Origin: an uncultured archaeon
GTDB taxonomy: Archaea; Nanobdellota; Nanobdellia; Woesearchaeales; CAIVOO01
Direction of reading: 5' to 3'
NCBI GenBank assembly: GCA_903904885.1
Contig: CAIVED010000016.1
Span: forward strand, 1 to 33,755
Length of the DNA stretch: 33,755 nucleotides
The position numbers were made by a program, and so were the translations under genes. Shown here one piece after another: positions 14,810-33,755 of this stretch. The notes under the pieces were generated by a model. That model had not been told where the DNA came from. It was given only the letters and a program-made list of their open reading frames with translations, and searched no databases. Positions within the stretch are counted from its first letter, which is position 1. Every line of letters starts with the position of its first letter.

Positions 14810-14836
14810 TTTTTTCAAAATAAAATATGATCACAT

Positions 14837-29655: not shown

Positions 29656-30330
29656 TCACCTCGTTAGCTTGTGCAATAAAAATTTTGATGCTATCTTCAG
29701 GCTGTTGAATATGCTCTGGCCCTTTGCCATCGAATATTCGCTGTAAACTATTGTTACAGGAACTTCCCTGAATTTGATGTGCTTTCTCGCAATCTCGTCA
29801 ATAATCTCGGATGCATGCTCCATCCTGTCCTGGGTTATCTGGATTTTCTCGGCTGCTTTCCTTGAAAATGCCCTGAATCCGTTGTGGGTGTCTGTCAGCT
29901 TTATGCCAGAAAAGATTCTTGTGAAAATGATTCCTGCCTTTAATGTGAGTTTTTTAAAGAATGGAACCTGTGTTTTTTTGTCCAGGAATCTTGAGCCAAG
30001 AGTTACCTCTGCTTCGCCTTTTTCTATTGGAGCTGTAAGCCGCTTTATCTCATCTGCCCTGTGCTGGCCGTCTGCGTCAAATGTGACTATTATTTCTGCT
30101 CCGTTCTGCAGGGCGTAATCAATGCCGGTCTTTAATGCAGCTCCCTGGCCCCTGTTGATTGAGTGCTGAAGCGCGATTACGTTTTCCTTCTTGCATACTT
30201 CATATGTGTTGTCTTTGCTTCCGTCATCTACCACTACGATATTGCTGTAGCCTTCCTTCTTTAGGGATTTGATTACATTGGCTATGCTTTTTCCCTCATT
30301 ATAGGCTGCAATCACAATGAAAGTCTTCAT
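29656..30330 (-). CDS. GT2 polyprenyl-phosphate sugar synthase (DPM1/DPG-like)
   Basis: The 224-aa protein has the short GT2 form: TFIVIAAYNEGKSIANVIKSL, NIVVVDDGSKDNTYEVC, INRGQGAALKTGIDYALQNGAEIIVTFDADGQH with the DxD motif, and a late LTDTHNGFRAFSRKAAEKI region, as in dolichol-phosphate mannose or glucose synthases. It would load a sugar from a nucleotide donor onto a polyprenyl phosphate at the membrane. The next gene is the DUF2304 protein, and the previous two encode SMR-type transporters that may flip the product. There is no C-terminal membrane helix. Confidence 0.92.
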   Translation of the reverse strand: MKTFIVIAAYNEGKSIANVIKSLKKEGYSNIVVVDDGSKDNTYEVCKKENVIALQHSINRGQGAALKTGIDYALQNGAEIIVTFDADGQHRADEIKRLTAPIEKGEAEVTLGSRFLDKKTQVPFFKKLTLKAGIIFTRIFSGIKLTDTHNGFRAFSRKAAEKIQITQDRMEHASEIIDEIARKHIKFREVPVTIVYSEYSMAKGQSIFNSLKIASKFLLHKLTR

Positions 30331-30671
30331 CTTATGGTTGTTAATGCAATTCCTCCGATTATCAAGAACACCCCAACCCAGTTCAGGAGGCTGACTTTCT
30401 CCTTTAATAAAGTTTGTGAAAGAATGGCAACCCAGAGATAGCTGAATGCATACATTGGATAGACTATTGACAAATCCCCAATTTTAAGTGCAGAAACAAG
30501 GGTTATTGTGGCTGTGGCGTAGAGTACTAAACCGAGGATAACTCGCCAGTTTGTTATCCAGTCCATTATCTTGAATGAAATCTTCTTTGAGCCCAGCTTG
30601 AAGAACAGCATGCCTGTTGCTCCGAGAATAGAGCTTATGATTACAAGTATGACCATTAGCGCGCTTATCAT
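30327..30671 (-). CDS. SMR/EamA-like half transporter, copy 2
   Basis: The 114-aa protein has four hydrophobic helices typical of small multidrug-resistance or ArnE/ArnF-type half transporters: ALMVILVIISSILGATGMLFF, VILGLVLYATATITLV, VYPMYAFSYLWVAIL, and VGVFLIIGGIALT. It overlaps the next gene by four bases. It resembles the preceding 117-aa protein along its whole length, so the two probably pair as a heterodimer, as ArnE and ArnF do. A role in flipping a polyprenyl-phosphate sugar made by the adjacent GT2 is inferred from position. Confidence 0.86.
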   Translation of the reverse strand: MISALMVILVIISSILGATGMLFFKLGSKKISFKIMDWITNWRVILGLVLYATATITLVSALKIGDLSIVYPMYAFSYLWVAILSQTLLKEKVSLLNWVGVFLIIGGIALTTIR

Positions 30672-31021
30672 CTTTTTATTGAGGTTAACGAAACCCCTCC
30701 GATTATCAATAAAAACCCAATCCAGTTTGTCCAGATTAGCTGCTCTTTAAGTATGAAAATTGACATTAAAGCAACCCAGATGTAGCTTGTTGCAACAACA
30801 GGGTAGAGCAAAGAGAGATCTGCTTTCTTGAGTATAAGTATGAAGATTATTGTTGCCAGGCCGTAGAAGATTACGCCTGCGATTACATAAAAATTGAGAA
30901 TCCAGGACAGGATGTTGAATGAAACATTTCCTGCCCCAAGCTTGAAAAGAAGCTGTCCCAGGGCCCCGAAAACAGCGCAGAGTATGGCTATCAGGATGTA
31001 CTTGAACTTGCCCTTCTTCAT
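30668..31021 (-). CDS. SMR/EamA-like half transporter, copy 1
   Basis: The 117-aa protein has the same four-helix plan as its neighbour (YILIAILCAVFGALGQLLFKLG, NFYVIAGVIFYGLATIIFIL, LYPVVATSYIWVALMSIF, WIGFLLIIGGVSLTS), with shared GxxLFKLG, YP and NWIGFLLIIGG segments. It is first in a seven-gene minus-strand operon. Its ATG lies 25.5 bases from the centre of a palindromic TATA box shared with the divergent GT2 gene, so it is predicted to be leaderless. Confidence 0.87.
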   Translation of the reverse strand: MKKGKFKYILIAILCAVFGALGQLLFKLGAGNVSFNILSWILNFYVIAGVIFYGLATIIFILILKKADLSLLYPVVATSYIWVALMSIFILKEQLIWTNWIGFLLIIGGVSLTSIKR

Positions 31022-31756: not shown

Positions 31757-32242
31757 TCATCCAAGCTCTTTCCTGAACCTTTCTCTTATTTCTTCAATTT
31801 GGGTAAGCTTGAGGCTGTTTTTATAGGCGCCTATTTCCAATATAAATCGATCTGCCGTGCTAATCAGTTCCTGCGCTGATCTGTCTGTGACTGGCTTGTT
31901 TTGCCTTGGGGTAACATAATACTGCTTGTCAATTCTTTCTTCCTTTGCATCTGAAAAGATTTTGTATATTTTAGGCAAGACAAAAATTCTTTTTAGCAGC
32001 ACCGCAGCTGCTCCGTGGCTTTCGCATTTTATCCCGCATCTGAAGAAAAGCGACTGAATGGAATTATAAATTGAATAATATGCTTCTCCCACCGCATTTT
32101 CATATAGCGCTGCCTTGAATATCAGTTTTGCAGCCTGAAGGCAGTTCCCTGATTTTTTCTCATAGGACAGTGCAATTTCATCCGAAGGGTCAACCAGCTC
32201 CAGTTTCCCCTCATTCTTCAGATTATCCAAAAAGTTCCGCAT
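31757..32242 (-). CDS. HEPN-domain protein
   Basis: The 161-aa protein is all-helical. The HEPN hallmark region is LQAAKLIFKAALYENAVGEAYYSIYNSIQSLFFRCG followed by ESHGAAAVLLKRIF, with a later RFILEIGAYKNS helix. HEPN proteins pair with MNT nucleotidyltransferases in toxin–antitoxin or defence-related modules, where the HEPN partner may be an RNase. The canonical RNase RxxxxH motif is not evident to me, so it could be a substrate-binding or inactive HEPN. It overlaps the end of the MNT gene by 20 bases and is co-transcribed. Confidence 0.85.
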   Translation of the reverse strand: MRNFLDNLKNEGKLELVDPSDEIALSYEKKSGNCLQAAKLIFKAALYENAVGEAYYSIYNSIQSLFFRCGIKCESHGAAAVLLKRIFVLPKIYKIFSDAKEERIDKQYYVTPRQNKPVTDRSAQELISTADRFILEIGAYKNSLKLTQIEEIRERFRKELG

Positions 32243-32771
32243 AATATTTCTCCCCCCCGCTTATTATTATGTGGTTCTTCATAATTTCCTGTATCAGCAG
32301 ATTGTCCTTGTCAAATTCTCCTATTTTAATGCTTAGTTTGCCATTGATTTTTTTGATTTCCTCTTTAAGCTTATTTTCTGATGTTTCTATGTATATGTCT
32401 ATGTCGCTGTTTTCCTTTGGGCTGAATTTGGCATAGCTCCCGAAAAGAAGAATCATTCTGTCCTTGCATTTTTTGGTTATTTCCATGAAAAGGGGTTCCA
32501 GGAAAGCATATTTTTTAAGCAGCTTGAAAAGCTTGTAATTTTCCGCACTCAGGACAAATGTTTTTGCAACAAGATTCTTCTTGATGAAATATATGTGGTT
32601 TTTTCCGATTTTTTTGTAGTCAATCGCATTATTGTCCCTTAGGTCATTGAGCACTGATTGTGTTTTTGTAAGGGATGTTTTAAGCTCCTTTGCAATTTCC
32701 CTGCCGTGGGCTTCCTTTTTTATGAGATAAAGAATCACTTCTGCAGTGTAATTGACTTTTTTTTGGTTCAT
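32223..32771 (-). CDS. MNT-type nucleotidyltransferase with N-terminal HTH
   Basis: The 182-aa protein starts at ATG 32771, which has a TATA box AGGTTTAAATA about 28 bases upstream. An in-frame ATG at 32816 would add 15 residues and has its own TATA box in the repeat at 32840-32872. Residues up to about 65 form a winged-helix-like HTH (AEVILYLIKKEAHGREIAKELKTSLTKTQSVLNDL…). The C-terminal part has the minimal nucleotidyltransferase signature LLFGSYAKFSPKENSDIDIYI with GS and DxD residues. MNT proteins can add AMP to a HEPN partner to block its toxicity. The next gene, overlapping by 20 bases, encodes HEPN. Confidence 0.86.
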   Translation of the reverse strand: MNQKKVNYTAEVILYLIKKEAHGREIAKELKTSLTKTQSVLNDLRDNNAIDYKKIGKNHIYFIKKNLVAKTFVLSAENYKLFKLLKKYAFLEPLFMEITKKCKDRMILLFGSYAKFSPKENSDIDIYIETSENKLKEEIKKINGKLSIKIGEFDKDNLLIQEIMKNHIIISGGEKYYAELFG

Positions 32772-32793
32772 ATGAACTAAAAATAAATCAATA

Positions 32794-32805
32794 GTATTTA
32801 AACCT
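32794..32805 (-). promoter_or_regulatory. TATA box of the MNT–HEPN unit
   Basis: AGGTTTAAATAC on the minus strand is centred about 28 nt before ATG 32771. The identical AGGTTTAAATA also occurs in both 33-bp repeats. Confidence 0.5.
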
Positions 32806-32839
32806 TTCTGTTCCATGACTCAGCTGAGCTGAAAACGCG

Positions 32840-32872
32840 TATTTAAACCTTGCACGTGGCTTCAGAGACGGC
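32840..32872 (-). repeat. 33-bp promoter-containing repeat, copy A
   Basis: It matches 33723-33755 at 30 of 33 positions in direct orientation, 883 bases apart. Read on the minus strand it ends in AGGTTTAAATA (TATA box) and carries CACGTG upstream. It is about 24 bases before the alternative MNT start at 32816. Confidence 0.85.
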
Positions 32873-32915
32873 GTAGGGTTAAATTATAGAATGATGCCAT
32901 AAAAATTTAAGACAA

Positions 32916-33068
32916 TTAATCAATTATCCGGGCCTGCTGGGAACTCCACTTCTTGTTTTTGCTTTTTTTCATCCAATCTGCATACTTGTCAATGAAGTCC
33001 AGCCTTTCCTTGAAATTCTCCCTTTTTGCTTTTTTTAGCTCTTTTAGGTCGATTTTTGGAAGTTTCAT
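32916..33068 (-). CDS. Small basic protein (50 aa) coupled to the nucleotidyltransferase
   Basis: The ATG at 33068 overlaps the TGA of the upstream nucleotidyltransferase gene (ATGA), and the frame stays open for 50 residues to TAA. The protein reads MKLPKIDLKELKKAKRENF, then KERLDFIDKYADWMKKSKN, then KKWSSQQARIID. It has a charged N-terminal helix and a Trp-containing segment, with no cysteine or membrane segment. I do not recognise a named family. The tight coupling suggests a partner or antitoxin for the nucleotidyltransferase, by analogy with two-gene modules of this type. Confidence 0.78.
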   Translation of the reverse strand: MKLPKIDLKELKKAKRENFKERLDFIDKYADWMKKSKNKKWSSQQARIID

Positions 33069-33700
33069 TTTAAATACCTGTTAAATGCCTTTTCTATATT
33101 AAGTTTTCGGTTAAATTCAGATAATAACCCCAAGTCAAGCTTATCCTTAAATAGTCTATACAAATGCCTTGCATCTTCTATATCTTTCTCGCTTCCCAGG
33201 AAAAGTTTGAAAGGGATCTGCAGTTCCAGAGGCGAAATGAATAAGGTTTTTCCATTAAGCAAAACCTCTTTCCTGTTTTTGACTACCCACAAATCTAAGT
33301 CTATCTTTGGGAACTTTATCTCCATATTTGGGACATATTCCTTTTTTCTTGAAAATCTTATGGCATGGCCAGTAAGGAGATATTCATTATACGCTGATTC
33401 TGAATCATCTGTCATTATGCATTCAAATTCTTTCAGCTTTTTCCATAAAATCTGGAATTCCTGCAAGCCAATCTTTTCAATGATTATGTCAATATCTTCA
33501 GAACTCCTGCTTCTGCCAAAAAGGATGGAAACATAGCCAGATATTACCACATACTTTAATTTCAGCTTATTAAGAACCTCAGCAAAGTCTATTATAAATT
33601 TATCCAGGGAATTAAGCTCCTTTCGAAGCTCAATCTTGTCTTTTGCAAACCTGATTTCCATGCCATTTATGATGATTATTTCACTTTTAAAGCTTTCCAT
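33065..33700 (-). CDS. Nucleotidyltransferase-fold protein (AbiEii/DUF6036-like)
   Basis: The 211-aa protein contains the nucleotidyltransferase signature YVVISGYVSILFGRSRSSEDIDIII (near residues 49-73), with a G…G then D-x-D pattern, followed by a KIDLDLWVV strand that may hold the third acidic residue. A C-terminal helical region contains SEKDIEDARHLYRLFKD, typical of AbiEii-like proteins. It is probably part of a toxin–antitoxin or regulatory module. Its start fits a TATA box in the repeat at 33723-33755 about 27 nt upstream, making it leaderless. The downstream 50-aa gene is coupled by ATGA overlap. Confidence 0.84.
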   Translation of the reverse strand: MESFKSEIIIINGMEIRFAKDKIELRKELNSLDKFIIDFAEVLNKLKLKYVVISGYVSILFGRSRSSEDIDIIIEKIGLQEFQILWKKLKEFECIMTDDSESAYNEYLLTGHAIRFSRKKEYVPNMEIKFPKIDLDLWVVKNRKEVLLNGKTLFISPLELQIPFKLFLGSEKDIEDARHLYRLFKDKLDLGLLSEFNRKLNIEKAFNRYLK

Positions 33701-33722
33701 AAAGACAGGCGGGTTTAATTGC

Positions 33723-33755
33723 TATTTAAACCTTCCACGTGGCGTCTGAGACGGC
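33723..33755 (-). repeat. 33-bp promoter-containing repeat, copy B
   Basis: On the minus strand this copy contains GCCGTCTCAGACGCCACGTG and then AAGGTTTAAATA. CGTCTCAGACG is an 11-base palindrome and CACGTG a second one. The TATA part is about 27 nt before ATG 33700. The window ends at its outer edge, so the true length is unknown. Confidence 0.82.

Follow-up and report, generated by a model that had tools for sequence, protein, structure and literature searches.

A recurrent upstream promoter element as the probable operator of a stress-type regulon of toxin–antitoxin, nuclease and radA genes in an uncultured Woesearchaeales archaeon

RESULTS

Two promoter copies at the end of the window

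The window analyzed here is the whole of contig C16 (CAIVED010000016.1, 33,755 nucleotides) from the genome of an uncultured archaeon of the order Woesearchaeales (GCA_903904885.1; 44 contigs, 1,310,209 bp, 98.73% complete), and its rRNA is archaeal according to Rfam. The subject of this study is a promoter element, named R1 here, of which two copies, A and B, lie in the last kilobase of the window. A first-pass annotation had described them as two 33-mers at 32840-32872 (A) and 33723-33755 (B), 883 bp apart and identical at 30 of 33 bases, each upstream of a minus-strand unit, and these statements proved correct. The features of this region are as follows.

31757..32242, minus strand: HEPN toxin (PF05168; Pfam)
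32223..32816, minus strand: MNT antitoxin, with a winged-helix-like N-terminus and Polbeta/NTP_transf_2 (PF18765/PF01909; Pfam)
32795..32802, minus strand: further TATA-like box, downstream of copy A and ahead of an alternative MNT start codon at 32769-32771 (sequence)
32838..32878, minus strand: R1 copy A (model match, 39.2 bits)
32840..32847, minus strand: TATA box TTTAAATA of copy A (sequence)
32916..33068, minus strand: 50-aa protein overlapping the end of the 211-aa gene, without a family match
33065..33700, minus strand: 211-aa protein, a probable nucleotidyltransferase for which a motif is the sole sign; its copy on contig C42 is 92% identical
33722..33755, minus strand: R1 copy B, cut by the contig end (model match, 28.3 bits)
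33723..33730, minus strand: TATA box TTTAAATA of copy B, 23 bp ahead of the start codon of the downstream gene (sequence)

Copy B ends on the last base of the contig. Because the contig ends inside it, the 33-mer shows only part of a motif that is about six bases longer, and the score of copy B is correspondingly low. When the first 21 bases were searched with up to three mismatches, copies A and B were the only matches in the window and shuffled sequences gave none; high model scores in the window were likewise confined to these two copies. The R1 TATA boxes lie 23-24 bp ahead of the start codons at 33700 and 32816, a distance that would fit leaderless mRNAs. The palindrome CGTCTCAGACG, which had been pointed out in copy B, falls among the variable central positions of the motif, and none of the 12 other aligned sites has it. 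An origin of the repeat from a tRNA or another known RNA was rejected, the window holding only rRNA and a tRNA-Ala at 14836 (ARAGORN, Rfam); Rfam also gave no match in three other stretches of sequence (L087, L080, and L083), and there was no tRNA in L087.

Behind copy A, the MNT–HEPN unit was confirmed by both Pfam families, and the two adjacent, overlapping genes have, as predicted from sequence, the arrangement that defines a HEPN–MNT toxin–antitoxin module. Behind copy B, the annotated layout of a 211-aa and a 50-aa gene was found, while the assignment of the former to the nucleotidyltransferases drew no backing from profile searches: the 211-aa protein had no Pfam match even at E 10 and none in NCBIfam, PHROG, PADLOC or PDB sequences, no viral relative of it was found, and its predicted structure was uninformative (mean predicted local distance difference test score 34.7). 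The sole hint of a nucleotidyltransferase is a G...D-I-D motif. The 50-aa protein had no match in Pfam, NCBIfam, PHROG or PADLOC. The first 667 bp of contig C42 (C42:1-667) are 92.4% identical to 33078-33744 of the window and carry a near copy of the 211-aa gene with its own motif, which, judged by this identity, is either a true duplicate or a strain variant. Contig C42 starts inside this gene copy, and an HNH_3 gene diverges beyond its motif. The presence of such a near copy is probably why contig C16 ends where it does.

R1 is a family of sites at a fixed distance from TATA

A third copy of the 33-mer was found on contig C21 when three variable places were left free and three mismatches were allowed, and a loosened search with the core placed the 33-mer within a broader motif, of which it is a single form. 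The consensus, written for the promoter strand (the minus strand of the window), is RCGCCGTCnCnnnCGCCACGTCTAAARTTTAAATA, with a 22-bp core and a TATA box at a fixed distance; the window copies end GTGCAAGG or GTGGAAGG where the consensus has GTCTAAAR. Particular bases are conserved at fixed positions of the motif, and the N positions between them are free. A model of R1, built from the sequences of 12 sites, was run over the whole genome (1.31 Mb) and matched 21 sites at E<0.002, the 12 included, and five weaker ones up to E 10. The 21 sites are spread over 11 contigs in both orientations.

The association with TATA was measured with the TATA box left out of the query. A 13-base half-site with at most one mismatch was searched in 287,800 bp of the genome (15 stretches chosen around sites, plus the window) and gave 17 matches, most of them R1 sites already known from core searches that likewise excluded TATA. 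By eye, each of the 17 is followed by a TATA-like octamer at a constant distance, 10 of these octamers being exact TTTAAATA and seven variants, and the reversed half-site gave three matches, none with TATA at that position. At 19 of the 21 R1 sites a gene starts within 170 bp in the direction of the promoter. R1 thus recurs at a fixed distance upstream of the transcription factor B recognition element (BRE) and TATA box and is oriented toward a gene start, two of the properties expected of an archaeal upstream activator-type site. At six of the 18 listed sites (copy B is cut off on that side), the core has a further TATA-like box on its far side, in four of these six exactly 4 nt away, whereas the base rate in random 22-mers is 3.9%; the core can thus be flanked on both sides by TATA boxes that point away from each other.

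Two observations were made beside individual sites. On contig C1, an R1 site starts at the stop codon of a gene for a 731-aa protein with sigma-70 regions 2 and 4 (L086:7108-9303), in an archaeal genome. Sigma-70-like genes are prevalent in Woesearchaeota, according to the available part of PMC8204110. This protein was considered as the R1 factor solely because of that position, and was set aside since nothing supports it. At C3:16245 and C1:35767, some 70 and 160 bp after an R1 site begins, a common stretch, CCGCCGCCTAACCGGCAGCAACAGGTTGA, follows an A-rich run; it is possibly a small RNA or another repeat, and Rfam found nothing in L087, the stretch holding the C1 copy.

Toxin, nuclease and repair genes behind R1

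The first transcription units behind the 21 sites are the following.

Copy A on C16 and C21:55916: MNT–HEPN (Pfam)
One site: DUF2683-like protein (below the cut-off) and ParE
One site: small protein and PemK/MazF
One site, on C27: PIN
C21:51177: MazE-like protein (just under the cut-off) and PIN
C21:71402 and C21:67831: NYN
One site: 113-aa protein with DUF2283
Copy B on C16, and C42: 211-aa protein
One site: Bro-N protein related to DNA-damage-inducible protein D (far below the cut-off of that model)
One site: Rad51/RadA operon, running on into a PIN gene
Remaining eight sites: TctA; a lamin-tail protein; four units of unknown proteins; two sites without a convincing gene

Genes on the divergent side of R1 sites include RadC, a tyrosine recombinase, and two HNH endonucleases; the damage-type genes at R1 are the radA operon and the Bro-N/DinD-like gene behind it, and RadC and the tyrosine recombinase divergent from it. 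A Pfam search found two HEPN, two NYN, and eight PIN genes in the whole genome, of which both HEPN, both NYN, and three of the eight PIN genes lie within 1 kb of an R1 site, a total of 7/12 against 0.37 expected (binomial p 2e-8). The two MNT proteins are 34% identical over 90 aa and the two HEPN proteins have no usable alignment, whereas the promoters of the two pairs align at 74% over 94 bp. As the pairs have diverged, recent duplication of one cassette does not explain their common promoter.

R1 is confined to one lineage as far as seen

With three mismatches allowed, the R1 motif was found in one of 60 genomes, that of the window, and in none of 59 relatives, which include two of the same family and none of the same genus. 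The model at E<=0.1 matched 9 of 99 genomes of the order: 21 sites in this genome and one marginal match in each of eight others, the best at E 0.015. It had no match at E<=1 in 81 loci of relatives. At this sensitivity R1 was not found in relatives, and it would therefore be specific to the genus or species as far as seen. The first-pass annotation had named a lack of other copies and poor conservation in relatives as outcomes that would count against its proposal; the former is contradicted by the 21 sites, and the latter is what was found, in the form of absence (0/59 by pattern, single marginal matches in 8/98 by model). A viral source was rejected, as the exact pattern occurs in no viral contig. 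Occurrence in other organisms was rejected as well: 11 exact matches among 84,980 named genomes, a scan that may leave out the records of the window itself, were each single in a bacterial record and taken as chance.

A second, order-wide box at radA

A different box, CACTGGACA, was found in relatives, in many cases as the tandem CACTGGACACTGGACA. It stands ahead of radA, or of a gene of about 100 aa that precedes radA, with a TATA box some 13-18 bp further downstream. Of 29 radA loci, 16 were parsed by script, one of them without upstream DNA; 14 of these 16 carry the box, matched with no more than one mismatch, and TATA after it, compared with two of 16 for the opposite-strand control. With one mismatch allowed, 22 of 40 genomes have the tandem (one match for the reversed control). 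The exact 16-mer occurs in 34 of 148 genomes of the phylum, all 34 among the 104 of the same order and none among the 44 of other orders, and its reversed control gave none. In relatives (loci within L096-L153 and L166-L188), the tandem box stands before radA operons and, among other genes, before those for MCM, a helicase, a Schlafen-type protein, two tyrosine recombinases and homing endonucleases of the LAGLIDADG and HNH_repeat types, as well as before two Bro-N/DinD-like genes, one of which is 71% identical to the Bro-N gene of our genome.

In the genome of the window, single boxes were found at radA, the Bro-N gene, and a third gene, that is, three in the same 287,800 bp:

C15:22303 (L093:7303): single CACTGGACA box
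C21:54664 (L083:2664): single CACTGGACA box
C27:28320 (L090:14320): single CACTGGACA box

At radA and the Bro-N gene, which thus bear both elements, the single box lies just downstream of R1. The tandem ACTGGAC box is a possible archaeal SOS-like box. In the available text of PMC2556686, the Halobacterium radA1 motif TTTCACTTTCA is closest to it in kind, being tandem and in the same place, but its sequence is different and its named targets include no toxin–antitoxin units. Among the matches listed for the string CACTGGACA in the open-access literature, all were unrelated.

A direct repeat elsewhere in the window

A 60-bp direct repeat (77%) at 30324-30383 and 30668-30727 lies at the 3ʹ ends of two adjacent genes that encode similar small membrane proteins of 114 and 117 aa, apparently a tandem gene duplication.

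DISCUSSION

Our analysis points, with fair confidence, to R1 as a lineage-specific upstream transcription-factor site that defines a stress-type regulon of about 20 transcription units in one archaeal lineage. This is carried by the site family, its fixed spacing to the TATA box, its position before genes, and its concentration near toxin and nuclease genes. Of the two roles put forward in the first-pass annotation, a shared operator is borne out by 21 sites with fixed TATA spacing in front of mostly unrelated genes, whereas a recombination site is not, as homology, apart from the duplication on C42, is confined to the promoter; R1 probably switches genes on or off together instead of shuffling them. 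In the proposed mechanism, the 22 bp directly upstream of BRE/TATA are a putative protein-binding site, which a lineage-specific transcription factor probably occupies at roughly -35 to -57 from the predicted start. The bound factor would recruit TFB or TBP, in some places in both directions, so that toxin–antitoxin pairs, RNases, the radA operon, and a few secreted or membrane proteins may respond jointly to stress. The factor and the inducing signal are what we infer, together with activation, which we read from the position of the site.

Several points weigh against this interpretation. R1 was found in a single genome, two of the 21 sites (C21:5442 and C1:35606) have no convincing gene close downstream, and 8 of the 21 first units have no link to toxins, nucleases or repair. 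The families counted near R1 were picked after the contexts had been seen, so that the p value, being post hoc, flatters the case. Furthermore, in several toxin units another TATA box lies on the gene side of R1, nearer the start codon, and the main promoter there may be one other than R1; the same layout may also mean that R1 adds a regulated start to a basal one.

R1 could instead be the site of a site-specific recombinase or cassette system that carries promoters along. In its favor, mobility is common among toxin genes, copies A and B are in direct orientation, as are three C21 sites that span no more than 3.3 kb, a tyrosine recombinase and HNH genes stand divergently beside three sites, and the one true duplication, on C42, ends near the motif. 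Apart from that duplication of the putative nucleotidyltransferase gene, the homology that links this region with other sites reaches no further than the promoter. Variable positions lie inside the core, whose distance to TATA is constant; the sites, several of which front single-copy chromosomal genes such as radA, occur on 11 contigs in both orientations; and the two MNT–HEPN pairs have diverged, all of which makes this explanation very improbable. We also consider it unlikely that R1 is a passive dispersed repeat, similar to repetitive extragenic palindromic or miniature inverted-repeat transposable elements, that happens to hold a TATA box: although it is species-limited, multi-copy, and intergenic, and C3:16174 and C1:35606 share more than 22 bp of further sequence downstream, 19 of 21 sites aim at a nearby gene start, toxin and nuclease genes are enriched, and base-specific conservation between free positions resembles that of a binding site. 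Finally, the way R1 abuts BRE/TATA and the ordinary membrane proteins among its targets would suit a general strong-promoter element of the lineage, a variant core promoter with no dedicated regulon, but its sites number no more than about 21 in 1.31 Mb and are concentrated at toxin and nuclease genes, which leaves little room for it.

As a putative operator, R1 is new in detail and of a kind already known. Its GC-rich 22 bp occupy a fixed place just ahead of BRE/TATA, and it is at this place that activators of archaea bind. TrmBL1 of Thermococcales represses from downstream sites and activated two of three tested templates with sites upstream of BRE/TATA, so that in its case the upstream position goes with activation; its sites (TGM) resemble R1 in being many across the genome, upstream of BRE/TATA, and perhaps able to serve divergent genes from one site, but TGM is a clear palindrome with sugar-metabolism targets, whereas R1 has another sequence, at best weakly dyadic, and other targets (available parts of PMC4706686). 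In UV-inducible Sulfolobus promoters, a motif upstream of BRE is essential, and this A(N)TTTC motif, like R1, is non-palindromic, just upstream of BRE, and tied to a stress regulon, a proposed one in the case of R1; it is 6 bp, AT-rich, and directed at ups/tfb3, whereas R1 is 22 bp, GC-rich, and directed at toxin, nuclease, and radA genes, and a UV response has been demonstrated for the Sulfolobus promoters (PMC5817253, as far as its text was available). The half-site CGCCACGTCTAAA has no match in the open-access literature, and neither box was described among the matches listed there for archaeal SOS-like regulation, Woesearchaeota toxin–antitoxin promoters or DPANN promoter motifs.

The bacterial SOS/LexA regulon has a similarly mixed set of recombinase, Bro-N/DinD-like, and toxin–antitoxin targets. 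R1 differs in lying upstream of TATA in archaeal TBP/TFB promoters. Because the kinds of genes behind the two boxes overlap (radA operon, Bro-N, tyrosine recombinase, HNH_repeat endonuclease, and PIN toxins), we tentatively suggest, as a doubtful but specific extension, that R1 might be a lineage-specific DNA-damage box that overlays or is replacing the order-wide tandem ACTGGAC box, in an SOS-like regulon that would join recombination repair with toxin–antitoxin dormancy.

How archaea coordinate DNA repair with toxin–antitoxin systems is poorly known, and the published motifs, in the parts of those reports available, are small and come from Halobacterium and Sulfolobus. A sharply defined element that links many toxin–antitoxin units and radA in one uncultured archaeon offers a concrete regulon to test, and the order-wide radA box, which is better conserved, provides another way into a possible SOS-like response of archaea.
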